Origin: Ancylobacter sp. WKF20
Lineage (GTDB): Bacteria > Pseudomonadota > Alphaproteobacteria > Rhizobiales > Xanthobacteraceae
Assembly (NCBI RefSeq): GCF_029760895.1
Contig: NZ_CP121679.1
Coordinates: 310,001 to 374,000 of the forward strand
Direction of reading: 5' to 3'
DNA length: 64,000 bases
In this document: in pieces, positions 2,879 to 17,854 of the stretch
How the letters are laid out: the number at the start of each line of letters is the position of its first letter
Position numbering within the stretch: position 1 is the stretch's first letter
The notes under the pieces: generated by a model
Seen by the model: the letters and a program-made list of their open reading frames with translations, nothing else
Told to the model about the DNA's origin: nothing
Databases searched by the model: none
Made by a program: the position numbers and the translations under genes

Positions 2879-3727
2879 GTGAGTCTGATTTCGACAGTGG
2901 AGCCCGCCGCCTCGGCGGCCCGGCGCCGGCGGGCCGATCCGGCGACATCTTCCGCCTCCCTGCTGCCAAAGCCGGCCTTCCCCGCCCAGCGCCTGCTCGG
3001 GCCGGCGCTGGTGCTGCTGCTCTGGTATGTCGCCTCCGGGGCCGGCTGGATCTCGCCGGCGAAGATGCCGGGGCCGCAAGTGGTGGTCGCCACGCTCGGC
3101 CAGCTCATCGCCGACGGGACGTTGGCGGCGGATGTCATCGCGTCGCTGCATCGCGCCGCGCTGGGCCTCAGCATCGGCATTCTCGCCGGTTTCGTGCTGG
3201 CCGTGCTCGCCGGGCTGACGCGCCTTGGCGACGCGATGATCGACGGGCTGGTGCAGGTCAAGCGCTCCATCCCCAACCTCGCGCTGATCCCGCTCTTCAT
3301 CATCTGGCTCGGCATCGACGAGACGATGAAGATCGCCATCATCGCCCTCGGCACGATGGTGCCGATCTACATCAACACCCATGCTGGGCTGCGCGGCATC
3401 GACCGGCGTTATGTCGAGCTGGGCCAGACGGTGGGGCTGTCGCATTACCGCTTCCTGCGCCACATCGTCTTCCCGGCTTCGCTGCCCGGCTTCTTCACCG
3501 GCCTGCGCCTCGCGGTGACGCATTCCTGGACGGCGCTGGTGGTGGTCGAGACGATCAACGCCACCTCCGGCATCGGCTTCATGATCACCCAGGCCCGCAT
3601 TTACGGGCAGACCGACGTGGTCCTTGTCGGGCTGCTGCTCTATGGCGCGCTCGGCTTCAGCTCCGATGCGCTGGTCCGCGCGCTGGAAAGGAGGGCCCTG
3701 TCATGGCGACAGTCGCTCGCGCAGTAA
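2879..3727 (+). CDS. ABC transporter permease, SsuC/TauC type
   Basis: Inner-membrane permease of an aliphatic sulfonate/nitrate/taurine-type importer, with about six hydrophobic segments from residue 45 onward. The EAA-like loop is at YVELGQTVGLSHYRFLRHIVFPASLPGFFTGLR. I prefer the GTG at 2879, because a GGAG lies 8 nt ahead; a GTG at 2822 immediately after the upstream stop would add 19 residues without a good ribosome site. The gene overlaps the ATPase gene by 25 nt, showing translational coupling. Confidence 0.85.
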   Translation: MSLISTVEPAASAARRRRADPATSSASLLPKPAFPAQRLLGPALVLLLWYVASGAGWISPAKMPGPQVVVATLGQLIADGTLAADVIASLHRAALGLSIGILAGFVLAVLAGLTRLGDAMIDGLVQVKRSIPNLALIPLFIIWLGIDETMKIAIIALGTMVPIYINTHAGLRGIDRRYVELGQTVGLSHYRFLRHIVFPASLPGFFTGLRLAVTHSWTALVVVETINATSGIGFMITQARIYGQTDVVLVGLLLYGALGFSSDALVRALERRALSWRQSLAQ

Positions 3728-4446
3728 GCCCGCAAGGGAGCCCCGCCGAGAGCGCCGCCGCGGTCCGCATTCGTGGGCTCGCCCGCAGCTTTGACGGGCG
3801 CACCATCCTCGCCGGTATCGACCTCGACATTGCGCGCGGCGAGTTCGTCGCGCTGCTCGGCCGCAGCGGGTCGGGCAAGAGCACGCTTCTGCGCGCCACC
3901 GCCGGGCTTGATGCCGGCGTGGTCGGCAGCGGCAGCATCGAGGTGCCGGAGCGGCGCTCGGTTCTGTTCCAGGATTCACGTCTGCTGCCCTGGGCCAGCG
4001 TGATCGACAATGTGGTTCTCGGCAGCTTCACCACCGCCGAGCGCGAAAGGGCGCGGGCCGCGCTGCGCGAGGTCGGCCTCGGCGGGCATGAGGACAAGTG
4101 GCCGAAGGCGCTGTCGGGCGGCGAGCAGCAGCGCGTGGCACTCGCCCGGGCGCTGGTGCGCGAGCCGGAACTGATCCTCGCCGACGAGCCGTTCAGCGCG
4201 CTCGACGCGCTGACGCGGCTGCGGGTGCAGCGCCTGCTGCTGCAACTCGTCGAACGCCACCGGCCGGCCGTGCTGTTCGTGACCCATGACGTGGAAGAGG
4301 CGCTCCGCCTCGCCGGCCGCGTCGTCATCCTTGCCGATGGCCGCATCATCTATGACCGCCCGACGCATGGCGTGCGCGACAGCGCGACGCGCTTCGAGGC
4401 GGCGCGGCTGGAAATCCTGGAACGCCTCGGCGTCTCCCCCGACTGA
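3703..4446 (+). CDS. ABC transporter ATP-binding protein, SsuB/TauB type
   Basis: ATPase that drives the SsuC-like permease. Visible are Walker A GRSGSGKST, the Q-loop FQDSRLLPW typical of the sulfonate/nitrate subfamily, signature LSGGEQQRVALARAL, Walker B LILADEPFSALD and the switch histidine in FVTHDVEEA. The 247-residue length is normal for SsuB. The start overlaps the permease end. The binding-protein gene follows after 24 nt. Confidence 0.88.
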   Translation: MATVARAVSPQGSPAESAAAVRIRGLARSFDGRTILAGIDLDIARGEFVALLGRSGSGKSTLLRATAGLDAGVVGSGSIEVPERRSVLFQDSRLLPWASVIDNVVLGSFTTAERERARAALREVGLGGHEDKWPKALSGGEQQRVALARALVREPELILADEPFSALDALTRLRVQRLLLQLVERHRPAVLFVTHDVEEALRLAGRVVILADGRIIYDRPTHGVRDSATRFEAARLEILERLGVSPD

Positions 4447-4470
4447 TCGCTCAACCGAAGGTTCATCGCC

Positions 4471-5502
4471 ATGTATTTCAAGAATTTCCTTTTGCGGGCG
4501 GCGGCTATCGCCGGCCTTTCCCTCGTTCCTCTCGCGGCCACAGCGCAGACTGCCCCCACCGGCGAGTTGGCCGTGGGCGTGCCCAAGGGCGTGAAGCTGG
4601 TCATCGCCGACGACGCCAACTATGTCGCCAAGCTGCTGGAACTCTCCGGCGAGCAGGAGAAGCTGGCGGCTGACGTGTCCTACGCCAACTTCACCTCCGG
4701 CCCGTTGCGGCTCGAGGCGATCCGGGCCGGCGCGGCGCAGGTCGGCGCGGTCGGCGACGTGCCGCCGATCCTCGCGCAGTATTCCGGCGCGAATGTTGTC
4801 ATCGTCGGCGCCGTGGTCACCTCGGGCGCGGGCACGCTGCTTGCCACCAGTCCGGGTTCCGGCATCAAGACGCTGGCCGACCTCAAGGGGAAGAAGATCG
4901 GCATCAATGTCGGCACCGCCCAGCAGGCGACCGTGCTGCGCAATCTCAAGGCGGCCGGTCTCGCCATCACCGACATCCAGCCGATCAATCTCGGCCTGGC
5001 CGAGTTCGCCGACGCACTCCGCGCCGGCCAGATCGACGCCGCCGTGCTGAAGCAGCCGGACCGCACGCGCTATCTCAATTCGGTGAAGGGGCAGGGCGAC
5101 GCCCGTGCGCTGGACAACGCGCCCGGCGCCAACACCAACATCAAATACCTCTATGCCAGCGTGAGCGCCCTGCAGGATCCGGCTCAGGCAGCCGCCATCC
5201 GCGATTTCGTGGTGCACTGGTATCGCGCGCATCTGTGGAAGAATGCCCATCGCGACATTTGGGTGAATGAGTATCTGGTGAAGAACCAGCGGCTCAAGGA
5301 CGAGGATGCCGCGCTGGTCTGGGAGAGCGAAGGCGACGCGACCTCCATTCCTGGCCTCGCCAAGCTGGTGCCCATCCAGCAGGAAACGACGGACCTGCTC
5401 CAGGCCGGCGGTTCCTTCAAGGGCAAGACGCTGGATGCCAAGGAGCAGTTCGATCTGCGCTATCAGGCGCTTAACGAGCGGTCCCCGGCCGCCAACGACT
5501 GA
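4471..5502 (+). CDS. SsuA/TauA-type periplasmic sulfonate-binding protein
   Basis: Periplasmic substrate-binding component of the adjacent importer. A Sec signal peptide runs to about residue 26 (charged start, hydrophobic core, ATAQT cleavage region). The mature part carries SsuA-type features, such as SGPLRLEAIRAGAAQVGAVGDVPPI and the LADLKGKKIGINVGTAQQ segment. It closes the monooxygenase-permease-ATPase-binding protein operon. The ligand is probably an organosulfonate, inferred from the subfamily and the neighbouring monooxygenase. Confidence 0.85.
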   Translation: MYFKNFLLRAAAIAGLSLVPLAATAQTAPTGELAVGVPKGVKLVIADDANYVAKLLELSGEQEKLAADVSYANFTSGPLRLEAIRAGAAQVGAVGDVPPILAQYSGANVVIVGAVVTSGAGTLLATSPGSGIKTLADLKGKKIGINVGTAQQATVLRNLKAAGLAITDIQPINLGLAEFADALRAGQIDAAVLKQPDRTRYLNSVKGQGDARALDNAPGANTNIKYLYASVSALQDPAQAAAIRDFVVHWYRAHLWKNAHRDIWVNEYLVKNQRLKDEDAALVWESEGDATSIPGLAKLVPIQQETTDLLQAGGSFKGKTLDAKEQFDLRYQALNERSPAAND

Positions 5503-5560: not shown

Positions 5561-5584
5561 CGCGTGCCGGTCCGCCGGCACGCG
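5561..5584. terminator. Hairpin between convergent sulfur operons
   Basis: CGCGTGCCGG and CCGGCACGCG form a perfect 10-bp stem with a TCCG loop between the ends of two convergent operons. No clear T-tract follows on either strand, yet position and stability suit a shared terminator. Confidence 0.55.
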
Positions 5585-5589
5585 CATCG

Positions 5590-6354
5590 TCACGGCAGGT
5601 ACATGCCGCCATTCACATGGATGGTCTGGCCGGTGATGAAATCGCCCGTGGGCAAAGCGAGCGTGCGCACGAATTCGGCGACGTTGCGCGGGGTGCCCTC
5701 ATGGCCGACGACCAGGTGCCCGCCACCGGGGAAGGCGCCGCCGGCGCCGGAGGTCTTCGAGCGCGCGCCGCCGATCCGACCGGGCACCACGATGTTGGCG
5801 GTGATGCCGTGCTCGCCCAGTTCGACGGCCAGCGCCTTGGTGAAGCCGACCAACGCCGCCTTGGCGGTGGCGACATGGACGCGGTGGAACACCCCGGAAT
5901 GCGCGCTCACCCCGCCAATGGTGATGATGCGCCCGAAGCCGCCGCGGATCATCGAAGGGGCCGCCGCGCGGGTGACGAGGAAGGCCCCCTCGACGGTGAC
6001 CGAGTAGACCGCGCGGAAGGTCGCGAGGTCGAGCTCCGTGAACGGCTTCTCGCCGCGCACGGCGGCGTTGTTGACGAGAATGTCGAGGCTGCCGATCTCG
6101 TTGACGATGCTCTCGACGAGATGCTGGGCTTCGGCTTCCACCGAAATATCGGCCAGAAGCGCCGAGGCGCTGCCGCCTTCAGCGCGGATCTCGGCCGCGA
6201 CGGCCTCGATCTCATCCTTGGACGACTTGGCATGGACCACCACATGCGCGCCCTCGCGCGCCAGCAGCAGGGCGCTCTCGCGGCCGATGCGCCGCGCCGA
6301 GCCGGTGACGAGGGCGACCTTGCCGGTGAGCGGGCGGTTGGTTCCAGAGCTCAT
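5590..6354 (-). CDS. SDR-family protein lacking the catalytic Ser and Tyr
   Basis: Rossmann-fold short-chain dehydrogenase relative of 254 residues, starting at ATG 6354 (MSSGTNRPLTGK). The cofactor motif TGSARRIG (17-24) and NNAAV (95-99) are intact. The active site is not: the usual YxxxK reads VATAK (V161, K165), the serine position about 13 residues earlier is Gly148 in TIGGVSAHS, and the usual Asn of the NxxGxF segment reads Thr120. It ends with the FITGQTIHVNGGMY segment typical of SDRs. It is the last gene of an eight-gene minus-strand block, 19 nt behind the multi-rhodanese gene. It may bind NAD(P) without classical reduction, or use other chemistry; the substrate is unknown. Confidence 0.8.
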   Translation of the reverse strand: MSSGTNRPLTGKVALVTGSARRIGRESALLLAREGAHVVVHAKSSKDEIEAVAAEIRAEGGSASALLADISVEAEAQHLVESIVNEIGSLDILVNNAAVRGEKPFTELDLATFRAVYSVTVEGAFLVTRAAAPSMIRGGFGRIITIGGVSAHSGVFHRVHVATAKAALVGFTKALAVELGEHGITANIVVPGRIGGARSKTSGAGGAFPGGGHLVVGHEGTPRNVAEFVRTLALPTGDFITGQTIHVNGGMYLP

Positions 6355-6373
6355 AGCGATGTCTTCCGATGGA

Positions 6374-7969
6374 TCAGAGGCGGAACTGGATGGTGCCGTC
6401 GCGGCGGACCTGCGCGACGAGATCGAGTTCCCATTGCAGATAGTCGCGCATCGCGTCCTCCCGCTTTTCCCGGCGCTCGAAGGCCTTGAGCAGGACATCT
6501 TCCGGCGGGGAGGCGAGGTGCTCGGGCGCGGCTTCCAAGGCGAGGCCCGCGGCCTCCCACGCCGCGGTTCCGCCGGCCAGCACCGTCACCGGCGTGCCCG
6601 TTGCCGCCGATAGCTCGCGGGCGGCAAGGCGGGCGATCACCCCGTCCGGCGAGGTCACGACATAGAGCTTCGCCGCCGGCAGCTTCGCCGCGTCGGTCGC
6701 GAAGCGCGCGCGGATGGCGAACCAGGCGCCGGGGATGTGGCCGGCCCGGTAATGCCGGGTGGAGCCAAGATCGACCACGAGCGCGTCGCCCTGCGCCAGC
6801 ACCTCCGCCAGCGCGGCGGGCTCGATCGTCTCGGCGGCGGCCGCGTCGAGGCCGATCACCGTCTCCGGCGCGTCGCCCACCTCCAGCACGTCCTGCGGCG
6901 CTGCCTCGTCGAGCACGAACACATGGTCGAAGCCCATGCGGTGCAGCCACGCCGCCGCGGTGCGGGCGCGCACGCCGTCGCTGTCCGCCAGCACGATGCG
7001 CCCGCGCCGCACGGCGATGAAGGTGTCTGTCGCCTGGACCAGCTGCCCGCCGGGCGCGGACAGGAAGCCGGCGCGGTGGCCGGCGCGGAATTCGGCCGGG
7101 TCGCGCACATCGAAACGGTAGAGCGTGATCGCGTCCTGCTCGGCCTCGAAGCGCGCCAGCGCGCGCGTGTCGATGGTGGGGATGCCGTAGCGGGTCGCGA
7201 GTGCCCTGGCCGCCCGCCGGGCCCAGTCATGCGCGCTGGGCGACGGCAGCGGGGCTACGCGGTTCGCGCTGCGTTCCACCTCCAGACCGGCAAGGTGCCA
7301 GCCCTGGGTGCCGTTCTTAAGCGAGAGCACGGGGTTGGGCAGCCCGGCGTCGATCAGGATCTGCGCGCCGATGATCGAGCGGGTGCGTCCGCCGCAATTG
7401 ACCACGACCAGCGTGTCGTCCGCCGGCACGCTCTCGCGCACGCGCAGCACGAGTTCGCCGCTCGGGCAGTCCACGGCGCCGGGAATGGTGATCCAGCTAT
7501 ACTCGTCATAGGGGCGGCTATCGAGCAGCACGATGGTCTCGCCGGCCTTCCGGCGCGCCTCGAACTCGTGGGCGTCGATATGCGGGGTTTCGTAGGTGAC
7601 CTCGACCACTTCGCCAAAGGCCTTGCTCGGCACATAGACCCCGGCGAACAGCTCGAAACCGGCGGCCTTCCAGGCGGGAACGCCGCCGGCCAAGATCGCG
7701 ATGTCCGAATAACCGCCAGCGGCCAGTACCTGCGCGGCGCGGGCCGCCAGCGTCTCGTCGTCATCGACCAGCACGATGGGGGTGGCGCGGCGGGGCACGA
7801 GAGGCGGCACCAGCCTTTCGAGACGGCTCAGCGGCGCGTTCGAGGCGGCGAGCAGATGGCGCTCGGCGAAGACGCCTTCCTCGCGCACATCCAGAAGGGC
7901 GATCTCGGCGCGCGCGGTCAGGCGCGCATAGAGGGTGGCGGCGTCGATGCGCGCAAAGGCGGTGGTCAT
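6374..7969 (-). CDS. Four-domain rhodanese-like sulfurtransferase
   Basis: A 531-residue cytoplasmic protein built of four rhodanese-like domains, roughly 5-110, 125-232, 255-355 and 385-480. Only domain 2 has an active-site cysteine, C192 in the loop CGGRTRS. The matching loops of the others read DDDETLA, DSDGVRA and TSPDGVI, so those domains are probably inactive. Rhodaneses move sulfane sulfur via a cysteine persulfide. Placed after monooxygenase and transporter genes, it probably handles sulfur released from the imported compound. The last 50 residues form a charged tail (AFERREKREDAMRDYLQWEL). Confidence 0.85.
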   Translation of the reverse strand: MTTAFARIDAATLYARLTARAEIALLDVREEGVFAERHLLAASNAPLSRLERLVPPLVPRRATPIVLVDDDETLAARAAQVLAAGGYSDIAILAGGVPAWKAAGFELFAGVYVPSKAFGEVVEVTYETPHIDAHEFEARRKAGETIVLLDSRPYDEYSWITIPGAVDCPSGELVLRVRESVPADDTLVVVNCGGRTRSIIGAQILIDAGLPNPVLSLKNGTQGWHLAGLEVERSANRVAPLPSPSAHDWARRAARALATRYGIPTIDTRALARFEAEQDAITLYRFDVRDPAEFRAGHRAGFLSAPGGQLVQATDTFIAVRRGRIVLADSDGVRARTAAAWLHRMGFDHVFVLDEAAPQDVLEVGDAPETVIGLDAAAAETIEPAALAEVLAQGDALVVDLGSTRHYRAGHIPGAWFAIRARFATDAAKLPAAKLYVVTSPDGVIARLAARELSAATGTPVTVLAGGTAAWEAAGLALEAAPEHLASPPEDVLLKAFERREKREDAMRDYLQWELDLVAQVRRDGTIQFRL

Positions 7970-8000
7970 GCGTCACGCTGGTGGTTGAAGGCGGGAAGGA

Positions 8001-8027
8001 GCCGGCCCCGCTCGCGGCGGGGCCGGC
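8001..8027 (-). terminator. Strong hairpin behind the binding-protein gene
   Basis: GCCGGCCCCGC and GCGGGGCCGGC form an 11-bp perfect stem with a 5-nt loop, 8 nt after the stop of the solute-binding gene and before the rhodanese gene. The absence of a T-tract suggests partial termination or mRNA protection, which often raises binding-protein output. Confidence 0.5.
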
Positions 8028-8034
8028 AGGCATG

Positions 8035-9105
8035 TCACTGGCGGTTGAAGACCGCGTCGAACTGCTCGAGGAACTTCTGCGAGGCCTCGCCGCCAATGTC
8101 CTGGTCGGCGACGATGATCTTCAGGTCCGACAGCTTGGGCAGGCCGGCCGGGATCTTGGCGTCGGGATGGGTCGGGATGTAGGAACCGGCATTGGCCACA
8201 AGTTCCTGCCCTTCGGCGCTGGTCAGCACCTCGATCAGCAGCTTGGCGGCGTTCGGGTTGGGGCCGCCCTTGAAGATGGCGAGGTAGTTCTCGTTGGTGA
8301 CGACGCCGTCCTCGAGGATGTAGGCCTCGATGCTCTGCCCCTTCTCCTTGGCGGTGACGACGTTCTGCGACGAGATCAGCGGCGAGAGATCACGCTCGCC
8401 GGCGACCAGCAGGCGTACCGATTCCGCATTGCCGCGCGTGAACAGGAAATCCTGCTTGGCGAAGCCCTTGATGGTGTCCCACGTGATGATCTTGTGGGCC
8501 AGCAGGGTCTGGAACCAGGTGAGCTGCGAGGCGGCCGAGCGCGGGTCGGAGAAGACGATCTTGCCCTTCCACTTCGGGTCGAGGAAGTCACTGATCTTCT
8601 TCGGCAGCACGGACGGATCGGGGAAGGCCTTCGGATTGTAGGCGGCCGAGAGCAGCGTGGCGGCCGTGGCGATGTAGCTGCCGTCGGCATCCTTGTAGTT
8701 GCCGCCGATCTTGTCGAAATCGCGTACCTTGTAGGGCGTGAGGTAGTCGCGCTTCTTCCAGTCGTCGAGGATGAAGCGCTGGCTGATGAACACCACGTCG
8801 AGATTGGTGCGGCCCGCCGCCTTCTCCGCCTCGATGCTCGGGATCAGGTCCAGCGTCTGCTTCTGGACGATGTTGAGCTTCACATCCGGGAACGTCTTGC
8901 GCCAGAACTCGAGCACCGCCGTGCTCGTTTCCTGGCGGTAGGACGTGTAGAACACCACCTGGCCTTCCTTCTTCGCCGCCTCATAGAGCGGGGCGAAGCG
9001 CTCGGGCAGCGTGTCGGCCCGGGCAGGCGCGAATGGGGTCGCGATCAGGGCCGTCACGGCGAGGGCCGCCGCGCCCTTCAGCAGGCTGCGCTTGTCGATC
9101 ATCAT
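8035..9105 (-). CDS. Extracellular solute-binding protein, family 1 (FbpA/PotD-like)
   Basis: Periplasmic binding protein of a Fe3+/spermidine/phosphonate-type ABC importer. The N-terminus is a signal peptide (RRSLLKG-like start MMIDKRSLLKGAAALAVTA, cleavage near ARAD). The mature part has YEAAKKEGQVVFYTSYRQET and SDPRSAASQLTWFQ, typical for family 1 binders. The paired tyrosines of iron-binding FbpA are not evident, so the ligand is probably not ferric iron; an organosulfur compound is more likely from context. The ATG at 9105 has a GGAGAG ribosome site, so the 10 residues before it in the open frame are dropped. Confidence 0.82.
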   Translation of the reverse strand: MMIDKRSLLKGAAALAVTALIATPFAPARADTLPERFAPLYEAAKKEGQVVFYTSYRQETSTAVLEFWRKTFPDVKLNIVQKQTLDLIPSIEAEKAAGRTNLDVVFISQRFILDDWKKRDYLTPYKVRDFDKIGGNYKDADGSYIATAATLLSAAYNPKAFPDPSVLPKKISDFLDPKWKGKIVFSDPRSAASQLTWFQTLLAHKIITWDTIKGFAKQDFLFTRGNAESVRLLVAGERDLSPLISSQNVVTAKEKGQSIEAYILEDGVVTNENYLAIFKGGPNPNAAKLLIEVLTSAEGQELVANAGSYIPTHPDAKIPAGLPKLSDLKIIVADQDIGGEASQKFLEQFDAVFNRQ

Positions 9106-9131
9106 AATGGTCTCTCCACGAAGAAATGGGC

Positions 9132-10505
9132 TCACGCCGCCGCCGGGGAGGCGTGTGGCGTTGCGCTGGGTTTGTGATGCTTGTGACGGCGCGCCGGGCG
9201 CGCGAGGCCGAGATGCTCGCGCAGCGTGCGGCCCTCATACTCGGTGCGGAACAGGCCGCGCCGGCGAAGCTCGGGAACGACCAGCTCGATGAAGTCGTCG
9301 AGCCCGCCGGGCAGATAGGGCGGCATGACGTTGAAGCCGTCCGCCCCCTCGTTGAGGAAGCGCTCCTCCATCGCGTCGGCGACCTGTTCGGGCGTACCGA
9401 CCACCTGCCAGTGGCCACGCGCGCCGGCCACCCGCAGGCCGAGCTGGAGGATGGACAGGCCCTCGCGCTCGGCGAGTTCCACCAGAAGCGCCTGCCGGCT
9501 CTGCGCGGCATTGGTGAGGGGAATGTTCTTCGGCAGCGGCCCGTCGAGCGGCAGGTGGCGCAGCGGCACGCCCAGCCGGTGTTCGAGGATGGACAGCGCC
9601 ACATCCGGGTGGATGAGGTTCTGCAACTGGTCGAACTTCGCTCTGGCTTCGGCCTCGGTGCGGCCGACCACCGGGAAGATGCCGGGCATGATCTTTACAT
9701 CGTCCGGCGAGCGGCCATGGGCGCGGGTACGCGCCTTCACGTCGCGGTAGAAGGCCTGCGCGTCCTTCAACGTCTGCTGCGCGGTGAACACCACCTCGGC
9801 GGAAGCGGCGGCGAGATCCTTGCCGGCCTCGGACGAACCGGCCTGCACCAGCACGGGGTAGCCCTGCGGCGCGCGCGGAATGTTGAGCGGGCCGCGCACC
9901 TTGAAGAACTCGCCCTGGTGATCGAGCGTGTAGACCTTATCGGGGTCGAAGAAGACGCCGCTGTCCTTGTCGCGCAGGAAGGCGTCGTCTTCCCAGCTGT
10001 CCCAGAGCCCCTGGGCGACGGCGAGGAATTCCGCCGCGCGGCGGTAGCGCTCGTCATGGTCGAGCAGCCGGTCGCGGCCAAAATTCAGCGCTTCCGCCTC
10101 GTTGGCGGAGGTGACGAGATTCCAGGCCGCGCGCCCGCCGCTGATATGGTCGATCGAGGCAAATTTGCGCGCGAGAATGTAGGGCTCGTTATAGGTGGTG
10201 GAGGCCGTGGCGACGAGGCCGATGCGCTCGGTGACGGCGGCGAGCCCGGCGAGCAGCGTCAGCGGCTCGAACTGGGCGACGTAATGCGTCGAGAAGCGCG
10301 CCAGGGCTCCCCAATCCTCGCCACGCGCACCGGCGCTGTCGGCGAGGAACACCATGTCGAACTTCGCCGCCTCCGCCGCGCGGGCGATCTGGGTGTAATG
10401 GCGGAAGTTCACGCCGGCATCGGCCTGCGCGTCCGGGTGGCGCCAGGCGGCGGCGTGGTGGCCGGTGGGGTAGAGAAAGGCGCCGAGCGCCATCTGTTTG
10501 GTCAT
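9132..10505 (-). CDS. NtaA/SnaA/DszA-family FMN-dependent monooxygenase
   Basis: Second luciferase-like monooxygenase of the window, 457 residues from ATG 10505 (MTKQMALGAFLYPTGHHAAAWR). Signatures: ATASTTYNEPYILARKFASI, GGRAAWNLVTSANEAEALNFG, and the QAGSSEAGKDLAA block. It is one of two such enzymes in the same eight-gene block, with the FAD oxidoreductase 20 nt upstream and the binding protein 26 nt downstream. It needs reduced FMN from a reductase not encoded nearby. A role in C-S bond cleavage is inferred from family and context. Confidence 0.85.
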   Translation of the reverse strand: MTKQMALGAFLYPTGHHAAAWRHPDAQADAGVNFRHYTQIARAAEAAKFDMVFLADSAGARGEDWGALARFSTHYVAQFEPLTLLAGLAAVTERIGLVATASTTYNEPYILARKFASIDHISGGRAAWNLVTSANEAEALNFGRDRLLDHDERYRRAAEFLAVAQGLWDSWEDDAFLRDKDSGVFFDPDKVYTLDHQGEFFKVRGPLNIPRAPQGYPVLVQAGSSEAGKDLAAASAEVVFTAQQTLKDAQAFYRDVKARTRAHGRSPDDVKIMPGIFPVVGRTEAEARAKFDQLQNLIHPDVALSILEHRLGVPLRHLPLDGPLPKNIPLTNAAQSRQALLVELAEREGLSILQLGLRVAGARGHWQVVGTPEQVADAMEERFLNEGADGFNVMPPYLPGGLDDFIELVVPELRRRGLFRTEYEGRTLREHLGLARPARRHKHHKPSATPHASPAAA

Positions 10506-10525
10506 GACGATGTCCTCGGGATGGC

Positions 10526-12088
10526 TCAGGCGGCCGTCAGTTCGGGCGCGCTCGCCCAGGGGCGCTGACGCGCGGCATCGCGGCCGGCGATCTGGCCGGT
10601 GACGAAGCATTCGGCGAGGTTGCCGGCGCCGAGATAGAGAAAGCCCCAGATCGAGCCGAGCTCGCCGGCCGCATAGAGGCGGGGGATCGGCTCGCCATGC
10701 GCGTTCACCACGCGCTGATGCGCGTCATGGGCGGGGCCGCCCTGCGTGTTGCTGACCACCGGCCAGAGCTCGCCGACATAGAAGGGCGGGTTCGTCACCG
10801 GAAAGAGCGAACCGGAGGGGCGGGCATGGTCGCGGTCCTCGCCGGCCGCCACCGCCGCGTTCCACCGCGCGAGGCTGTCGGTGACGGTCGCGACATCCGC
10901 GCCGATCAGCGCCGCCAGTTCCTCGACGCTGTCGGCCCGCTTCAGGATGCCGATTTCGACTTCCTTGAGATTGTCGTCGCTCCATTCATAGGGCTCCACC
11001 GTGCGGTCGTTCAGCACGGTCTGGCCGAGCGGGTAGAGCTTGCGACCCTCTTCATCGACCACGAGGAAGGCCGGGATGCGCGGGAAGCGCTGGGTCTGCG
11101 CGTCATATTGGTCGAGCGGGCGGTGGCCGGTGTCCTGCAGATAGGGCTGGTACTCGTTCATGAAGCGCCGGCCCTGCCGGTCGAGCACGATCCAGGACAT
11201 GCGCACATCCGGCGCCTTCACGCCGGGCGTCCAGTCCGGCACCTTCTTGACGCGCAGGCCGTAGGGATAGGCAGGGTCCGGGTGGCGGAAGCCGTAGGAG
11301 CCGTGGAAGTGCCACATGTGCCAGAGGTCGGCCCCGGCCGCCTGCGCCATGCGGATGCCGTCGCCGGTGTTGCCGGTCGTGGCGACGGGAAGCACCGGGC
11401 GGATCTGCCAATATTTGCGCTGGAGTTCCGGCGAGGCCTCGAAGCCGCCGGAGGCGAGGATCACCCCGCGCCGGGCGGCGATGCGCTTCAGCGTGCCGCC
11501 GCTGCGCACCTCGGCGCCGAGCACCGCGCCGCCCTCGCCGAGGATCAGCTTCTCCGCCGCCGTATTCAGCCGAACCTCGATGCCGCGCGCCCGCACATTG
11601 TCATGCACCAGCTTGAACACGTTCGGCCCGCGCAACCGGCCGCGCACCTGCGGGTATTCCGTGCGCGGGTCGAAGCCGGGGATGGAGAGCACCTCCACCG
11701 TGCCGAAGCCGTCATAGCCGGGGAACGGGTAGTTGGCCGGGCGTCGATGCACCGCGATCTCCGCGCCATTCACCTTGGCGAGGTCGCGGAAATAGCCTTC
11801 CAGCCCGGCCATGCCCTCCGCCACCGCGTCGAGCACATCGTCCGGCACGTCCGGCCCGACCGTCTCGCGCAGATAGGCGCGCGCGCCCGCCGGCTCGACG
11901 ATGGTGCGGATGCCGCCACCGGCGCAGATCGAGATCCCGCCGGGATCGGGCTGCTTCTCGATCAGCAGCACGCGGGCTCCGGCATCATGCGCCGCGATGG
12001 CAGAGGCGCCGCCGGCAAAGCCGAAGCCGATGACGAGGACGTCCCAGACCTCGTCAAAGCGGTCGGGAGAGGAAGAGCGCAGAGTCAT
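10526..12088 (-). CDS. FAD-binding oxidoreductase (fumarate reductase/KsdD-like)
   Basis: Flavoprotein of 520 residues in the FAD-binding-2 family. The dinucleotide motif GFGFAGG lies at 21-27, followed by VLLIEKQPDPGGISICAGGG. The C-terminal FAD segment reads RLYAAGELGSIWGFLYLGAGNLAECFVTGQIAGRDAA. Such enzymes oxidise or reduce C=C bonds, as in fumarate reductase, ketosteroid dehydrogenase and tricarballylate dehydrogenase. No signal peptide or heme motif is seen, so it is cytosolic. Lying between the permease and a DszA-type monooxygenase, it probably processes the carbon skeleton of the imported compound. Substrate unknown. Confidence 0.8.
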   Translation of the reverse strand: MTLRSSSPDRFDEVWDVLVIGFGFAGGASAIAAHDAGARVLLIEKQPDPGGISICAGGGIRTIVEPAGARAYLRETVGPDVPDDVLDAVAEGMAGLEGYFRDLAKVNGAEIAVHRRPANYPFPGYDGFGTVEVLSIPGFDPRTEYPQVRGRLRGPNVFKLVHDNVRARGIEVRLNTAAEKLILGEGGAVLGAEVRSGGTLKRIAARRGVILASGGFEASPELQRKYWQIRPVLPVATTGNTGDGIRMAQAAGADLWHMWHFHGSYGFRHPDPAYPYGLRVKKVPDWTPGVKAPDVRMSWIVLDRQGRRFMNEYQPYLQDTGHRPLDQYDAQTQRFPRIPAFLVVDEEGRKLYPLGQTVLNDRTVEPYEWSDDNLKEVEIGILKRADSVEELAALIGADVATVTDSLARWNAAVAAGEDRDHARPSGSLFPVTNPPFYVGELWPVVSNTQGGPAHDAHQRVVNAHGEPIPRLYAAGELGSIWGFLYLGAGNLAECFVTGQIAGRDAARQRPWASAPELTAA

Positions 12089-12100
12089 GACGTGTCTCGG

Positions 12101-13852
12101 CTAGCTGATGGAGGCCGTCTTCTTGACGGTGAACAGGCGGATGAAGGCCAGCATCGACAGGCTGACCACGACGATGATCACCGCCAGCGCGGCGGCGAGT
12201 TCGACCGCCCCGTCCTCAATGAACTGGAGCACCACGGTGGGCATCACCTGGGTGTCCGACTGGGCGAGGATCGCCGACATGGAGAGCTCGCGCAGGCTGA
12301 GTGAGAAGACGAGCACCCAGGCGATGCCGACCGAGCCGCGCACCAGAGGGAAGGTCACGTCCTTGATGGAGCGCAGCCAGCCCGCGCCGGAGATGCGCGC
12401 GGCTTCCTCCAGATCGGTGGAGAGTTGCTGGATGCCGTTGCGCACCAGCACGAAGGCGATCGGCAGCAGCTTGCCGGCATAGGCGACGAGGATGAGCGTC
12501 AGCGTGCCGTAGAACAGGTCGACATAGCCCATGAGGATTCCCACCGCATAAGCGATGGACGGGAAGCCATAGGCGATCATCACGAGGAAGCTGATCAGCT
12601 CCCGACCAAAGAAGCGGAAGCGCTCCACCACCCAGCCAAGCACGAGGCCGAGCGTGGCGCACACCGTCGCGGCGGCCAGCGCCAGCAGCATGGAATGTAG
12701 GATCGAGGCGCGGGCGGCGAAATTCTCGTCGAAGATCAGCGCGTAGTGCTTGCCGACGAGATTGGCGAGGCTGATCGGCGCGCCGAAGGAGGACAGCACG
12801 GAGAGCAGCAGCAGCGCGCCGACCGGAAGGATGGCCGTCACCAGCGCGACGATAATGCAGAAGCCGCCCGCCAGCCAGCGCCAGCGACCGAGCTTGACGA
12901 TCTGCTCCGGCGTCGCCTTGCCGGTGAGGGTGCGGAAATTCTCCGCCCGCACCGCGTATTTCTGGATCAGCAGGCTGATGGCGGTGAAGATCAGGATCGG
13001 CATCGCCACCGCCGCCGCATAGTTGAACTGCGGCGGGAATTTCAGCAGGTCGTAGATCTTGGTGGTGATGACCGAGAAATTGGCCATCGTACCGATCGCC
13101 GCCGGCGCGCCGAAGGAGGAGAGCGCGTCGAGCATCACCAGGATGATGGCGGAGAGGATGGCCGGGCGCACCATCGGCAGGGTGATGGTGAGCGTGGTAC
13201 GCCAGCGGTTGGCGCCGAGAATACGGGCGGCCTGCTCGTGGCTGGCGTCGATATTGTTCAGCGCCGCGTTCACCGCGAAGAACACCAGCGGGTAGACACC
13301 GACGATCTCGATGAAGACGAGGCCGGTGAAGCTCATGATGTTGAGCGGCGCGCTGCTGAAGCCGAGATAGCCGGTCGCGAGCTTGTTGAGGTAGCCGGAA
13401 TTCGGTGCGGCGAGGAAAATCCACGAGATCACCGAGATGAAGGTCGGGATCACGAAGGAGATGCCGGCCGCGAGCGTCACCAGCGACTTGCCGGGCGCGT
13501 CGGTGCGGGCCACCAGCCAGGCGAGGGGGATACCGAGCGCGCAGGCGCCGGCGGTCACGAAGAAGACCAGCCAGCCGGAATTCACCGTCGCCTGCCACAT
13601 GCCCCGGCGGGCAAACGCCTTCTCGAAGGTCTCGAAGGTCAGGTGGCCCTTGGCGTCGACCAGGCTATAGCCGGTCAGCAGCGCCAGCGGGTAGGCGATC
13701 AGCGCCAGCAGGATGGCGATGGACAGGCCGATAACCAGGAAGCGCACCGGCTGGAGCGCGGAGACGCGGCGGAGCAGGCGGCTTCCGGCGGAGGCGCCGT
13801 GCGGGGCGTGGCGCTCCGTGAGCGCGGTGCCGGGGAAGCTGATCTCGCTCAT
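12101..13852 (-). CDS. Fused two-domain ABC permease, FbpB/ThiP type
   Basis: A 583-residue inner-membrane protein with about 12 hydrophobic segments in two homologous halves. Each half has a transport EAA-like loop: EQAARILGANRWRTTLTITLPMVRPAI in the first, LEEAARISGAGWLRSIKDVTFPLVRGS in the second. This duplicated layout is standard for Fe3+/thiamine/2-aminoethylphosphonate importers and needs only one permease gene. Its ATG overlaps the end of the ATPase gene by 4 nt (ATGA), so the two are translationally coupled. Confidence 0.87.
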   Translation of the reverse strand: MSEISFPGTALTERHAPHGASAGSRLLRRVSALQPVRFLVIGLSIAILLALIAYPLALLTGYSLVDAKGHLTFETFEKAFARRGMWQATVNSGWLVFFVTAGACALGIPLAWLVARTDAPGKSLVTLAAGISFVIPTFISVISWIFLAAPNSGYLNKLATGYLGFSSAPLNIMSFTGLVFIEIVGVYPLVFFAVNAALNNIDASHEQAARILGANRWRTTLTITLPMVRPAILSAIILVMLDALSSFGAPAAIGTMANFSVITTKIYDLLKFPPQFNYAAAVAMPILIFTAISLLIQKYAVRAENFRTLTGKATPEQIVKLGRWRWLAGGFCIIVALVTAILPVGALLLLSVLSSFGAPISLANLVGKHYALIFDENFAARASILHSMLLALAAATVCATLGLVLGWVVERFRFFGRELISFLVMIAYGFPSIAYAVGILMGYVDLFYGTLTLILVAYAGKLLPIAFVLVRNGIQQLSTDLEEAARISGAGWLRSIKDVTFPLVRGSVGIAWVLVFSLSLRELSMSAILAQSDTQVMPTVVLQFIEDGAVELAAALAVIIVVVSLSMLAFIRLFTVKKTASIS

Positions 13853-15024
13853 GCCACCACCCAGGCGCTGCCGGGGCGGGCCCAGAGCTGGGCACGTCCC
13901 TCCGGGAAGGTGCCGCGCCGGCGCGACTGCACGCGCAGCAGCGTCTCGCCCGCCGCGAGCTTCAGCTCGTAATGTTCGCCGAGGAAGGATTCGCTGATGA
14001 AGGCTGCACCGATGGCCTGCTCCACGCCCGGATCGTCCGGCGCCTCCAGCTTGATGTCCTGCGGGCGCAGCAGCACACTCGCCCGGCTGCCGGCGGCGGC
14101 GTTGGCCAGCCAGGCTTGGGGCGCGCGGCTCCAGATCCGTCCGCCGATGTCGAGCGCCACCAGTACACGCTCGCCCGCGCGGTCCACCGAGACAATGTCG
14201 CCGTCCAGAAGATTGGCGATGCCGATGAAGCTGCCGACGAAGCGGGTCGCCGGGGTGCGATACACCTCCTCGGGCGTGCCGATCTGCTCGATGCGGCCCT
14301 TGTTCATCACCACGATGCGGTCGGCGAGCACGAGGGCCTCGTCCTGATCGTGAGTGACATAGAGCGTGGTGATGCCGAGGTTTTTCTGCAGCTCGCGCAG
14401 CTCGAAGCGCATCTCCTCACGCAGCGAGGCGTCGAGGTTCGACAGCGGTTCGTCGAGCAGCAGCAGCGAGGGCTTGGTGGCGAGCGCGCGGGCGAGCGCG
14501 ACGCGCTGCTGCTGGCCACCGGACAGCTCGGCCGGGAAGCGATTGGCCAGCGGGGCGAGCTGCACCAGATCGAGCACGGCCGCGACCTCGGCCTTGATCT
14601 CGGCCCGCCGCCGGCCGGCAACTTCGAGGCCATAGGCCACATTGTCGGCCACCGTCTTGTGCGGCCAGATCGCGTAGGTCTGGAACACCATGCCAAGGCG
14701 GCGCTTCTCCGGCGGCAGCACGAAGCTGGCGCTGGAGGAGAGCACGCCGTCGAGATGCACCTCGCCGCCATCGGGCTGGAGGAAGCCGGCGACCATGCGC
14801 AGCGTCGTCGTCTTGCCGCAGCCACTCGGTCCCAGCAGCACCACGCTCTCTCCCGGCGCGACCTTGAGGTCGATACCGTTGACGGCGGCCGTGTCGCCCA
14901 GCGCTTTGCGCAGATTGCGCAGTTCGAGACGGGCCGGCGCCTGCGTCGCCGGAGTGGCGGATGCAAGGTCGGCGGCAAAGGCGAGGGTGGTGGCGGGCAC
15001 GGCAGTCTCCGTCAGATCAGGCAC
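13849..15024 (-). CDS. ABC transporter ATP-binding protein, PotA/FbpC type
   Basis: ATPase of 391 residues for the fused permease and the family 1 binding protein. Walker A GPSGCGKTT, Q-loop FQTYAIWPHKTVADNV, signature LSGGQQQRVALARALA, Walker B LLLDEPLSNLD and VTHDQDEAL are all present. A C-terminal TOBE-type regulatory domain follows from about residue 290. The start is 8 nt after the monooxygenase stop, so the importer is made together with the enzymes. Confidence 0.88.
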   Translation of the reverse strand: MPDLTETAVPATTLAFAADLASATPATQAPARLELRNLRKALGDTAAVNGIDLKVAPGESVVLLGPSGCGKTTTLRMVAGFLQPDGGEVHLDGVLSSSASFVLPPEKRRLGMVFQTYAIWPHKTVADNVAYGLEVAGRRRAEIKAEVAAVLDLVQLAPLANRFPAELSGGQQQRVALARALATKPSLLLLDEPLSNLDASLREEMRFELRELQKNLGITTLYVTHDQDEALVLADRIVVMNKGRIEQIGTPEEVYRTPATRFVGSFIGIANLLDGDIVSVDRAGERVLVALDIGGRIWSRAPQAWLANAAAGSRASVLLRPQDIKLEAPDDPGVEQAIGAAFISESFLGEHYELKLAAGETLLRVQSRRRGTFPEGRAQLWARPGSAWVVA

Positions 15025-15032
15025 GGGTGGTG

Positions 15033-16385
15033 TCAGGCTGAGCGCGCGTAGCGGCTCTCGGGGCGCGTCAGGCCGTAATGGTCGCGCAGGGTCCGGCCGG
15101 CATATTCGTGACGGAACAGGCCGCGCTGGCGCAGGATCGGCACGACCTCGTCAACGAATTCGGCGAGGCCCGCGGGGATCACCGCCGGCATGATGTTGAA
15201 GCCGTCCGCCGCGCGGTTCTCGACCCAGAGCTGGATATGGTCGGCCACCGCCTTCGGTGTGCCGGCCAGCACCTTGTGACCCCGCCCACCGGCGAGGCGG
15301 CGCAGGAGCTGGCGCAGCGTCGGGCGCTCGCGCTCGACAAGGGTGAGGATCACCTGGGAGCGGCTCTGCGCCCCCTGCACGGTCTCAGGCTTGGGGAAGG
15401 CGTCGAGCGGGATTTCCTCGTCGAGCGGGAAGCCGCTGAAGTCGAAGCCGTCGAAACGCTGGGAAAGGTGCTTGAGGCCGACCACCGGGAGGGTCAGGTC
15501 GTTCAGCGCTTCTTCATGGGCGCGCGCTTCCGCCTCGGTGGAGCCGAGGATGGGCGACAGGCCGGGCAAAACCTTCACACCGTTCGGATCACGGCCGAAG
15601 GCGAGAGCGCGGTTTTTCACATCGGCGTAGAACGCCTGCGCGTCGGCAAGATCCTGCTGGGCGGTGAAAATGGCCTCGGCGTAGCGCGCCGCGAAGCTGC
15701 GCCCGCTCTCGGACGAACCGGCCTGCACGAGAACCGGCCGGCCCTGCGGCGAACGCGGCAGGTCCAGCGGCCCGCGCACGCGGAACTCCTCGCCGTCATG
15801 GTCGATGGCATGGATACGGTCGGTATCGGCATAAACGCCGCGCGCGCGGTCATGCACCCGCGCATCGTCCTCCCAGCTGTCCCACAGCTTGGTCGTCACC
15901 TCGACGAATTCGGTGGCGCGCCGGTAGCGGTCCGCATGGGCGTTGCGCTGGGCGAGGCCGAAATTGCCGGCGGCTTCGGCCGACCAGGAGGTGACGATGT
16001 TCCAACCGGCGCGGCCCTGGCTGATATGATCGAGCGAGGCGAACTGGCGGGCGAGGTTGTAGGGCTCGTTATAGGTGGTCGACGCCGTGCCGATCAGCCC
16101 GATGTGCTCGGTCGAGCCGGCGAGGGCCGAGAGCAGCGTCAGCGGCTCCAGCTTGCCCTGCGCCACATGCTTCACGCTGCGCCCGACGGCGAGCTGGTCG
16201 GCGAGGAACAGCGAGTCGAACGTGCCGCGCTCCGCGATCGCCGCCGTCTCGCGGTAATAGGCGATGTCCGTCAGGCGCTCGGGCTGCGTCGACGGGTGAA
16301 GCCAGGAGGCTTCATGGTGGCCCGTGGTCGGCACGAAGACATTGAGATGGATGTCGGTGCGTGTGGTCACCGCGGTGATCCTCAT
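15033..16385 (-). CDS. NtaA/SnaA/DszA-family FMN-dependent monooxygenase (first gene of operon)
   Basis: Third luciferase-like monooxygenase, 450 residues from ATG 16385 (MRITAVTTRTDIHLNVFVPTT); a GTG at 16409 would add eight residues and neither start has a strong ribosome site. Family blocks TASTTYNEPYNLARQFASLDH and RAGWNIVTSWSAEAAGNFG are clear. It opens the eight-gene block ending at 5590. It differs clearly from the second monooxygenase of the same operon, so the two may act on successive intermediates or on different substrates. Confidence 0.85.
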   Translation of the reverse strand: MRITAVTTRTDIHLNVFVPTTGHHEASWLHPSTQPERLTDIAYYRETAAIAERGTFDSLFLADQLAVGRSVKHVAQGKLEPLTLLSALAGSTEHIGLIGTASTTYNEPYNLARQFASLDHISQGRAGWNIVTSWSAEAAGNFGLAQRNAHADRYRRATEFVEVTTKLWDSWEDDARVHDRARGVYADTDRIHAIDHDGEEFRVRGPLDLPRSPQGRPVLVQAGSSESGRSFAARYAEAIFTAQQDLADAQAFYADVKNRALAFGRDPNGVKVLPGLSPILGSTEAEARAHEEALNDLTLPVVGLKHLSQRFDGFDFSGFPLDEEIPLDAFPKPETVQGAQSRSQVILTLVERERPTLRQLLRRLAGGRGHKVLAGTPKAVADHIQLWVENRAADGFNIMPAVIPAGLAEFVDEVVPILRQRGLFRHEYAGRTLRDHYGLTRPESRYARSA

Positions 16386-16440
16386 CGGGGGATTTATGGG
16401 GCCCGGCACGCGGTGTCCCGGTTCGGCGCCTGTGGCCGAC

Positions 16441-16500
16441 GTGTCGCATCCTAAGGATTTAATTCTAATTGTCTATGTATATAATATATATCTAATGGTT
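16441..16500 (-). promoter_or_regulatory. AT-rich promoter/operator island of the eight-gene operon
   Basis: About 50 bases of strong AT bias in a GC-rich context. Read on the minus strand it contains CATAGACAA (complement of 16469-16477) next to TATA-like runs. The box matches similar elements before other sulfur genes here. Promoter function is inferred. Confidence 0.45.
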
Positions 16501-16530
16501 GGCCCTGCTACCTGGGCGAGTGGCGGGCGG

Positions 16531-17736
16531 TTACACAGGCACCCATCGCCGGCGTAGCGGCAGCCCGGCGAGGAGGCCGAAAAAGCTGGCCACAAGGAAA
16601 ACCCAGCCGGAGAGTGCCCCGGCATGGATGCCCGACAGGAGCACCCCGACTGTGCAGCCAAGGGCGGTCATTGCTCCCCAACCCATCAGCACGCCGCCTG
16701 AAAGTCCGGCCAGCACGTCGCGCACGGTGGGTCGCCGCGGGGCGAATTGCCCGGCCAGCAGGGCCGAGGCGAGGCTCGCCCCGACGAGGCCGGTGACGAA
16801 TAATCCATTCTCGGAGAGCAGCGTTTCCTTCAGAACGGTGGCGCAGCCGCGAAAGCCATCGAGCCCGTGCAGTGTGTCCGGCAGGATGTTCCAGCCGCTC
16901 GCCGCGCTGCGCGCAAGGCTGCCGATCTCCGCGGTGACGCCGAGCGGGCCGACACGCAGATAGCTCGCGGCCGACAGGGCGCCGATCGCAAGCCCTGTGA
17001 CCGCTGCCGGCCAGCGCGCGACAAGGATCGCCCGCGCGAGGCTGGTGGATCCCGTCGCCGCCGCGTCGTGCGTGGCTCTCCCTCCTGCCCAGGCGAGCGC
17101 CGCCGCCGCGAGCAGAGCGAGGCCCGCGAGGCTGGCGGCAAGCGTGCCGGCATAGCCGAGGTGATGCGGCAGCCAGATCACCGGGGCCTCGGCGATCACG
17201 GCGAGATAGAGCGTGTTCCAGGTGAGGAAGCCGAGGCCGAAGCCCAGCCATGTTCCCAGAAGCGCGAAGGGGGAGGTCGGCGATCCCTCGCCGAGCCGGT
17301 AGAGATGGGCGGAGATGCAGGAGCCCGATATGGCCATGCCGAGCCCGAAGGCGAAGGCGGCGAGCGCCAGTACCCAGCTTACCGGGCCGATATGCGCGTC
17401 GGGTGGCAGGCGTTCCGGCTGGGGGACGGGCAGCCAGGCGCCCACCACCAGCGTATAGCCGGCCACGCCGACGGCCAGTGCCAGCAGGATCGCCAGCACG
17501 CCGCGCGGGTCGCGCTGGTCGATGAGATCGCGGGTGTTGCAGACGAAGCAGAACCGCCCGCGTTGCAGGATGACGCCGAACACGGCGCCCAGCGCCAGCG
17601 ACAGGCCGAGCGCGCGCGAGGCGGCATCCCCGGCGGAGAGCGCGAGCGTTCCCCCGACCAGCAGCGCCGCAATCAGGAGGGCAACGGAAATGGGTAGTAG
17701 GCGCGACGGCAGCGCGAGATGCAGAGGCGGGGGCAT
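16531..17736 (-). CDS. YeeE/YedE-family sulfur transporter (TsuA-like)
   Basis: Polytopic membrane protein of 401 residues with about ten hydrophobic segments, starting at ATG 17736. It shows the family cysteine motifs RGRFCFVCNTRD (N-terminal), SGSCISAHLYRLGEG (middle) and a C-terminal GWGAMTALGCTVGVLLSGI. YeeE (TsuA) imports thiosulfate through such conserved cysteines; other members move selenium or sulfur species. The partner TusA/YeeD-type gene is absent. Instead an exported rhodanese precedes it, so the pair may take up a sulfane compound processed in the periplasm. Confidence 0.85.
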   Translation of the reverse strand: MPPPLHLALPSRLLPISVALLIAALLVGGTLALSAGDAASRALGLSLALGAVFGVILQRGRFCFVCNTRDLIDQRDPRGVLAILLALAVGVAGYTLVVGAWLPVPQPERLPPDAHIGPVSWVLALAAFAFGLGMAISGSCISAHLYRLGEGSPTSPFALLGTWLGFGLGFLTWNTLYLAVIAEAPVIWLPHHLGYAGTLAASLAGLALLAAAALAWAGGRATHDAAATGSTSLARAILVARWPAAVTGLAIGALSAASYLRVGPLGVTAEIGSLARSAASGWNILPDTLHGLDGFRGCATVLKETLLSENGLFVTGLVGASLASALLAGQFAPRRPTVRDVLAGLSGGVLMGWGAMTALGCTVGVLLSGIHAGALSGWVFLVASFFGLLAGLPLRRRWVPV

Positions 17737-17782
17737 GACGGAATCCGGCGGGCCGGCCGATGACCTCGTCCGGCATGAAAAG

Positions 17783-17806
17783 GGCGCGGGGTGGGAGCCC
17801 CGCGCC
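17783..17806 (-). terminator. Rho-independent terminator after the exported sulfurtransferase gene
   Basis: A perfect 9-bp GC stem (GGCGCGGGG with CCCCGCGCC, loop 6 nt) is followed on the minus strand by CTTTTC. It lies between the sulfurtransferase stop and the YeeE start. Confidence 0.65.
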
Positions 17807-17854
17807 GGGAAAGGAGGAGGGTGGTGCGAGGCGCCCGTCATCCGGGCGGGCGGT

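Follow-up and report, generated by a model that had tools for sequence, protein, structure and literature searches.

An accessory operon of Ancylobacter sp. WKF20, predicted to import and oxidatively desulfurise an organosulfur compound, shares a promoter box with sulfur-uptake genes

What does a bacterium gain from an operon that joins an ATP-binding cassette (ABC) importer resembling those for iron or phosphonate to two flavin-dependent monooxygenases, a further flavoenzyme and a rhodanese? The question is raised by a locus of Ancylobacter sp. WKF20, whose genome is a single 4.63-Mb contig. The window analysed here is a 64-kb stretch of it (positions 310001-374000), and coordinates refer to this window unless stated otherwise. 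A sequence-only reading had placed eight genes on the minus strand at 5590-16409 and taken them for an operon of organosulfur uptake and oxidation. Gene calls located the eight genes at that place, on that strand and in that order, and scans with Pfam and NCBIfam recovered the family claimed for each of the eight products. From 5′ to 3′ the genes encode a luciferase-like monooxygenase (LLM-A), the ATPase and the fused permease of the importer, a flavin adenine dinucleotide (FAD) enzyme, a second monooxygenase (LLM-B), a periplasmic binder, a four-rhodanese protein and a short-chain dehydrogenase/reductase (SDR). They are separated by short gaps or overlaps, as had been claimed (8, −4, 12, 20, 29, 65 and 19 nucleotides (nt) with refined starts). 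The genes most likely form an accessory operon that is controlled together with sulfur-uptake genes and whose predicted task is the uptake and oxidative desulfurisation of an organosulfur compound.

The new evidence is a shared promoter box. An AT-rich dyad upstream of the first gene, common to the window and most of its relatives in the Xanthobacteraceae, overlaps a -35-like TAGACA, which is followed after 16 nt by a -10-like TAGGAT or TATGTT. In the window, direct reading gives a putative promoter at 16448-16475 (minus strand; TAGACA, 16-nt spacer, TAGGAT), and the dyad itself, TATATTATATACATAGACAAT (16468-16488, minus strand), matches the refined form TNTAT-N7-ATAGAYWAW exactly; orthologous operons are preceded by similar dyads. 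The genome contains five exact copies of the 16-mer WWWWNNNATAGACWAW, against one of its reversed control. One copy belongs to this operon and one to the SseA-YedE genes. Of the other three, one separates an FMN_red/ssu-type set from a second ssu set, one an ssu-type ABC set, whose binder stays under the SsuA cut-off, from an NtaA-type LLM, and one an osmF ABC set (over cut-off) from a desaturase gene. Allowing one mismatch, the refined dyad was found 10 times, at 9 places in the 4.63 Mb, whereas four simulated first-order Markov genomes contained one match in total. Six of the eight places other than this operon adjoin sulfur genes. These six are the SseA-YedE genes; an FMN_red gene with an ssu-type ABC set, divergent from an SsuA over cut-off; another SsuA over cut-off; an ABC set whose divergent neighbour is an NtaA-type LLM; an SfnG-like LLM next to a divergent ATC_hydrolase gene, itself followed by an NtaA-type LLM, the name ATC_hydrolase referring to the sulfur compound L-2-amino-thiazoline-4-carboxylate; and a CysP-type binder ahead of CysT and CysW permeases, all three over cut-off. 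Within the window, all nine matches with at most two mismatches are intergenic and mark four promoters, namely those of a convergent LLM-ABC set (1431-1464), of this operon, of SseA-YedE (18913) and of MetQ (20861). Annotation covered the nine places found with at most one mismatch, the matches in the window, selected loci and part of the matches with more mismatches.

Exact 16-mer sites were also present in five of six relatives from the genus (10 sites, against 3 for the reversed control). They stand at the operon in genome G394 and at MetQ-type and osmF-type genes in G355. In G425 two overlapping sites stand at an SseA-type gene, and others at genes for a binding protein, for an NtaA-type LLM and for an acyl-CoA-dehydrogenase-type protein whose matches to the SfnB and DszC models remain below cut-off. 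The operon box common to sulfate and sulfonate uptake promoters points to a putative sulfur-limitation regulon. Because uptake genes for sulfate/thiosulfate and for sulfonates carry the box too, the sulfur role proposed in the sequence-only reading fits the locus better than one in iron or phosphonate uptake; the surrounding sulfur island and a TauE/SafE gene at the Shinella copy agree with it. It is also favoured by the conserved gene order, by the TauD-type dioxygenase of variant operons and by the scores of both monooxygenases, which are higher with YtnJ/MoxC and DszA than with ethylenediaminetetraacetate (EDTA) monooxygenase. It is quite probable that the operon serves under sulfur limitation, bringing in an organosulfur compound and stripping off its sulfur by oxidation.

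Several observations weigh against this conclusion. One of the nine box places is phage-like, with a terminase nearby, and another is the osmF ABC/desaturase pair; the exact sites in G376 and G077 lie away from recognised sulfur genes, and G410 has no site. The reversed controls of the exact 16-mer, given above, are not empty. With two mismatches the reversed control reaches 39 matches against 57, and the Markov expectation of 11.75 is clearly too low. Because of the high control at two mismatches, only the strong matches are informative. The operon's own match is circular, because the box was derived from promoters of this operon, and the refined 21-mer was also built on the SseA, MetQ, LLM and osmF sites; the places new with the refined box are SsuA, CysP, a second site in the LLM island and the phage-like one, the ssu place coming from the earlier 16-mer search. 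Further, the box indicates at most co-regulation and not the presence of sulfur in the substrate. Finally, none of the eight operon genes encodes a flavin reductase, and two solved proteins named as of the nitrilotriacetate (NTA) monooxygenase type rival or exceed YtnJ in their scores with the monooxygenases, as described below.

Two side observations concern the box. Each of two sulfur islands has one of a pair of paralogous Rrf2-family regulators that share a conserved Cys cluster (24121-24570 in the window and 1304-1753 in region L171); both are candidate regulators of the box. The osmF-type ABC genes carry it both in this genome (region L166, near 6705) and, as an exact 16-mer, in G355 (L194); this importer may take up a sulfur-containing betaine rather than glycine betaine.

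How constant the gene set is was examined by scanning an alignment of the FAD protein against genome contigs, which gave 119 relatives, the best 80 being kept (loci L031-L110); the eight proteins were placed at the loci by tblastn, and genes were also called separately. Conserved synteny, the check proposed in the sequence-only reading, was found: the full eight-gene order is present at 12 (L031-L040, L042, L045) of the 17 loci whose FAD homologues are closest (L031-L047; 69-95% identity). The hosts of the full order are Ancylobacter, other Xanthobacteraceae, Bosea sp. 117, Shinella sumterensis and Rhizobium sp. CFBP 8762, and the closest named proteins come from Ancylobacter lacus (rhodanese 90% and FAD enzyme 95% identical). 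ATPase, permease, FAD enzyme and binder occur together at all 17 loci, LLM-B at 15, LLM-A at 14, the rhodanese at 13 and a codirectional SDR at 12. This combination of four was found at none of the 63 more distant loci (FAD identity 50-60%), where permease, binder and rhodanese had no match at all; because several of these loci sit on short contigs, the absence of partners is weaker evidence there. The operon is patchy. A search with the binder in 149 genomes of the family gave five with a match at E<=1e-40, orthologues being confined to this genome (G000, 100%) and G394 (91%), with the other matches 29-32% identical; among the genomes listed, an orthologue of the binder occurs in two of seven from the genus. 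The rhodanese does not by itself mark the operon, as it has matches at E<=1e-60 in 37 of 297 genomes of the order; its match loci (L002-L030) were set aside in the comparison of synteny.

The unit of eight genes described in the sequence-only reading is conserved and operon-like, but its composition varies. In Skermanella and Azotobacter a TauD-type dioxygenase gene is inserted between those of the FAD enzyme and LLM-B, and in Trabulsiella and on a Sodalis plasmid it replaces LLM-B, beside MmgE/PrpD-type and OCD-family genes. In all, TauD stands inside the operon at L041, L044, L046 and L111, with MmgE/PrpD near L044 and L111 and OCD near L046 and L111. Rhodanese and SDR are missing from the gammaproteobacterial versions, in which TauD is present with or without one monooxygenase. 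The SDR gene lies on the opposite strand at L041 and L047 and is split at L038 by two transposase-like genes (16496-17295 of that locus), where the seven remaining genes look intact. At six of the 12 full loci a TctC-type gene comes first, with divergent TctA/TctB-type genes (TctC and TctA identities tested at L039, TctB named by eye). The Shinella copy, carried by a 1.7-Mb plasmid, is preceded by sulfurtransferase, YeeE and Met-type ABC genes, and its TauE/SafE gene begins 34 nt downstream. As a separate observation, the TauD variant at L111, on plasmid pHS1 of Sodalis praecaptivus, adjoins a phn C-P lyase cluster.

The promoter region of these loci was surveyed in 19 upstream stretches of 250 nt (122 nt in the window) and compared with shuffled sequences. 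An exact TNTAY-N7-RTARA dyad was present in 10 of the 19, those of the window, L031-L035, L039, L040, L042 and L045, and with one mismatch at L036 and L038, which 11% of shuffles reach. The dyads of L037, L041, L043, L044, L047 and L111 have two or three mismatches and that of L046, at 220 nt, has one; in each of these cases at least 26% of shuffles do as well. The 16-nt spacing between -35-like and -10-like elements was likewise read at L032, L034 and L043.

The uneven retention of the genes bears on a view in which one promoter serves two modules, that is, a core of importer, FAD enzyme and LLM-B or TauD, and separate sulfur-handling genes (LLM-A, rhodanese, SDR), giving broad scavenging instead of a single linear pathway. 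The core four are present at all 17 loci and the other genes in the falling numbers given above, the SDR is reversed at two loci and split at a third, and homologous LLMs follow boxes elsewhere in the genome. Yet the order of the eight genes is constant across Xanthobacteraceae, Bosea, Shinella and Rhizobium. We hold such an arrangement to be a serious possibility, though not the expected one; it overlaps with a single organosulfur operon.

Does the importer point to iron or phosphonate? Its ATPase (PhnT2/PotA-like, PF00005; 13849-15024, minus strand), fused double permease (two PF00528 (BPD_transp_1) stretches; 12101-13852, minus strand) and binder (SBP_bac_6/8; 8035-9102, minus strand) find their best NCBIfam models in PhnT2, PhnU2 and phnS2, and all three stay below cut-off (353 of 458, 140 of 593 and 71 of 393 bits, the ATPase scoring 352.8 against 457.7 with TIGR03265). 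The binder model is confident and falls into the FbpA/AfuA/MctA fold class, matching iron and non-iron binders alike, so that the modelled fold class does not fix the ligand. Ferric binders of the FbpA type have an iron-ligating Tyr-Tyr pair; inspection by eye of the conserved SSQN region showed no such pair in this binder, which forms a discrete sequence clade. The description of the importer as a Fe3+/phosphonate-type ABC fits as to fold class and is otherwise imprecise, the binder being of its own clade. A role in iron or phosphonate uptake, with the oxidoreductases as accessories, could still be argued from the top-ranking phn models, from the fold match to ferric binding proteins and from source annotations that label the binder homologues as 'iron(III) transport system'. 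Against this stand the scores below cut-off and the nine annotated box places, at none of which an iron or phosphate gene was recognised. On these two grounds the iron/phosphonate role was rejected, and we regard it as very improbable.

The two monooxygenases were examined next to their solved relatives. LLM-A (15033-16370, minus strand) has an alternative start at 16409, but its start is probably 16370, because orthologues start there; LLM-B is encoded at 9132-10505 (minus strand). They are 52% identical and belong to the flavin mononucleotide (FMN)-dependent NtaA/DszA family TIGR03860 (569 and 597 bits for the whole proteins against a cut-off of 279.7), LLM-A being of the NtaA/DszA/YtnJ type, and LLM-B is 64% identical to a further TIGR03860 LLM at 2.3167 Mb of the genome. 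For LLM-A the best solved relative is YtnJ (356 bits), followed by 3sdo (350); for LLM-B it is 7e36_B (395), followed by 3sdo (373) and YtnJ (359). YtnJ/MoxC is, as we understand it, CmoJ. The remaining scores of LLM-A and LLM-B are 309 and 349 bits to DszA (5tlc), 238 and 240 to EDTA monooxygenase and, for LLM-A, 340 to 7e36_B.

These scores also bear on catabolism of aminopolycarboxylates or other C-N compounds, similar to NTA and EDTA, in which NtaA-type cleavage of C-N bonds would follow import of the chelate by a Fe3+-type ABC and MmgE/PrpD or OCD proteins would finish the skeleton. TIGR03860 includes NtaA, the top two solved relatives of LLM-B (7e36_B and 3sdo) are deposited as NTA-monooxygenase family, the fold class of the binder takes in metal-citrate binding, and TctC, MmgE/PrpD or OCD genes occur beside the operon at the loci named above. 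However, EDTA monooxygenase lies about 118-119 bits below YtnJ for both proteins, the box is common to sulfate and sulfonate genes, and a rhodanese is present at 13 of 17 loci, with TauE/SafE in Shinella. Degradation of C-N compounds is consequently judged unlikely.

The FAD enzyme (FAD_binding_2, PF00890; 10526-12088, minus strand) could act on the carbon part of the substrate. By overall score it is about as close to flavocytochrome c3 as to ketosteroid dehydrogenase. Flavocytochrome c (TIGR01813) reaches 180 bits against a cut-off of 285, yet is the best NCBIfam model, and the ketosteroid dehydrogenase equivalog PRK12844 gives 178 bits against 789. In Foldseek, ketosteroid delta1-dehydrogenases take ranks 1-6, and close behind them come flavocytochrome c3, urocanate reductase and cyclohexanone dehydrogenase. 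In the alignments, Tyr485 corresponds to Arg544 of Fcc3 (profile alignment) and Tyr316 to Arg402 (a weak local alignment of 2.8 bits, with which the ketosteroid-dehydrogenase alignment is concordant). The arginines of fumarate reductases and flavocytochrome c are thus replaced by tyrosine at both positions, and these tyrosines fall on the positions of NExxPY and YxGxG, which we take to be motifs of ketosteroid dehydrogenases, as in a 3-ketosteroid delta1-dehydrogenase-like enzyme, in parts of the structure model that are of low confidence. Both are present in all 82 locus homologues; W227, W259, H262 and Y265 are invariant within the enzyme's own family. The structure model has a predicted local distance difference test (pLDDT) score of 69, with active-site stretches below 50, and because it is weak the active-site assignment rests on the alignments. 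The protein is read as a putative dehydrogenase or reductase working beside a carbonyl. A dicarboxylate chemistry of the fumarate reductase type, considered by analogy with S-succinocysteine and with regard to the TctC and MmgE/PrpD neighbours, was rejected since the arginine positions are tyrosines. In the wider family (L048-L110), 13 of 17 tested positions are kept at all 63 loci among quite different neighbours, and because the neighbours differ, the chemistry of that wider family is probably not specific to sulfur.

The last two genes encode the rhodanese (6374-7969, minus strand) and the SDR (PF00106 (adh_short)/PF13561; 5590-6354, minus strand, the start being refined to 6354). The four rhodanese domains of the sequence-only reading are present as four PF00581 stretches, but a catalytic Cys is found solely in domain 2 (C192, in NCGGRTRS), which has the active-site Cys of a rhodanese/sulfurtransferase. 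It is kept in 15 of 15 aligned rhodaneses, and domains 1, 3 and 4 carry D, D and S at this position by eye. Residues 13-529 match 1yt8, which we take to be PA2603 of P. aeruginosa, encoded beside a thiol dioxygenase. For the SDR, all 25 NCBIfam models shown score below their cut-offs.

A sequence of steps can be proposed for an organosulfur operon. Binder, fused permease and ATPase would import an anionic organosulfur compound, whose carbon part would be modified next to a carbonyl by the SDR and the ketone-dehydrogenase-like FAD enzyme. Judging from their family, LLM-A and LLM-B would oxygenate the compound and cleave C-S bonds with FMNH2 and O2, in the manner of CmoJ, YxeK and DszA, which are described as C-S-cleaving homologues in PMC10863075. 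Reduced flavin would come from elsewhere, for example through the FMN_red gene that adjoins the ssu promoter with the box. The single-Cys four-rhodanese protein might deal with the sulfane sulfur or sulfite that is set free, for example by forming or consuming thiosulfate. A more specific pathway, which we offer tentatively and think rather unlikely to hold in every part, would desaturate first and desulfurise afterwards: under control of the sulfur box, the SDR would make a ketone, the FAD enzyme would add the adjacent C=C, the C-S bond would so be activated for the flavin monooxygenases (or, in other bacteria, for the TauD-type dioxygenase), and the rhodanese would take the sulfur as persulfide or thiosulfate.

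How far does this set differ from known ones? Sulfur scavenging by an ABC importer and a flavin monooxygenase is an operon kind already known, of which the present set is a variant. With ssuEADCB (SsuD, MsuD) it shares an ABC importer and a luciferase-like FMN monooxygenase, and the box is also found at the ssu-type genes of this genome; it differs in that both monooxygenases are of the NtaA and not the SsuD type (55 and 69 bits with TIGR03565, cut-off 518), in the class of its ABC (fused permease, SBP_bac_6 binder), in the additional FAD enzyme, four-rhodanese protein and SDR, and in having no flavin reductase. The ynjABCDEF genes of E. coli presumably also combine an ABC with a fused permease and a multi-domain rhodanese but, unlike this operon, no FMN monooxygenase, FAD_binding_2 enzyme or SDR. 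A DszA-type monooxygenase is held in common with dsz/bds dibenzothiophene desulfurisation, but the operon has a transporter and no homologue of DszB or DszC. As the sequence-only reading had claimed, it is unlike the ssu and dsz sets. The FAD protein shares the NExxPY and Y-x-G-x-G positions with 3-ketosteroid delta1-dehydrogenase and cyclohexanone dehydrogenase, both among its top Foldseek matches, but is just 18-25% identical to them, and fumarate and urocanate reductases score nearly equal.

Salvage of S-alkylcysteine and S-succinocysteine by cmo (CmoO/CmoJ) and yxe (YxeK) in Bacillus is related through YtnJ/MoxC, the best solved relative of LLM-A and the third of LLM-B; however, no acetyltransferase or deacetylase domain occurs among the eight genes. 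YxeMNO is an ABC transporter, and the yxe gene list given in the same paper contains no FAD_binding_2 enzyme, SDR or rhodanese (PMC9706529). A rhodanese-related sulfurtransferase and an ABC transporter are part of the Msdo cluster for mercaptosuccinate in Advenella (PMC5373536); the rhodanese-related protein is common to clusters for mercaptosuccinate and 3-mercaptopropionate and to this operon, which has no cupin thiol dioxygenase. In Rhodococcus erythropolis MI2, the organosulfur compound 4,4-dithiodibutyrate raises the levels of a luciferase-like monooxygenase and of rhodanese proteins; they belong to separate clusters, the rhodanese architecture is another one, and the excerpt describes no comparable operon (PMC5157978). 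Among the papers listed by searches of the open-licence PubMed Central (PMC) literature, judged by titles and the openings of abstracts, none was on the present gene set or the box.

The neighbourhood adds further sulfur genes. Directly upstream are genes for an SseA-like sulfurtransferase and a YeeE/YedE-type sulfur transporter (16531-18829, minus strand; box at 18913). On the other side, at 1466-5502 on the plus strand, an NtaA-like LLM, an SsuC-like permease, an ATPase and a binder (names by eye) run towards the operon, with the box-like matches at 1431-1464 ahead of them; the operon of Aureimonas (L047) is adjoined by four LLM-ABC genes 66-82% identical to this set. Between the convergent last genes lies a stem-loop (5561-5584, minus strand), a possible terminator without a T run, whose 66-nt fold has -32.8 kcal/mol (z -2.3), 4 of 200 shuffles being equally stable. 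A GTP cyclohydrolase II gene (riboflavin synthesis; 107-1141, plus strand) stands at the edge of this flavin-monooxygenase island. Elsewhere in the genome, a sulfur island at 2310000-2328000 of the contig (L167) holds three NtaA-type LLMs, an SfnG-like LLM, an ATC_hydrolase, two ABC sets, an acyl-CoA-dehydrogenase-type gene and two of the box places.

If the organosulfur role is true, the operon would be a patchy sulfur-scavenging pathway, chromosomal or plasmid-borne, with a natural organosulfur substrate. It would include a ketone-dehydrogenase-like step that is, to our knowledge, lacking from the ssu, tau, dsz, cmo and yxe sets. The box would give access to the sulfur regulon of Ancylobacter-type bacteria and would point to further, as yet unassigned organosulfur genes, such as those of the other NtaA-type island of the same genome.

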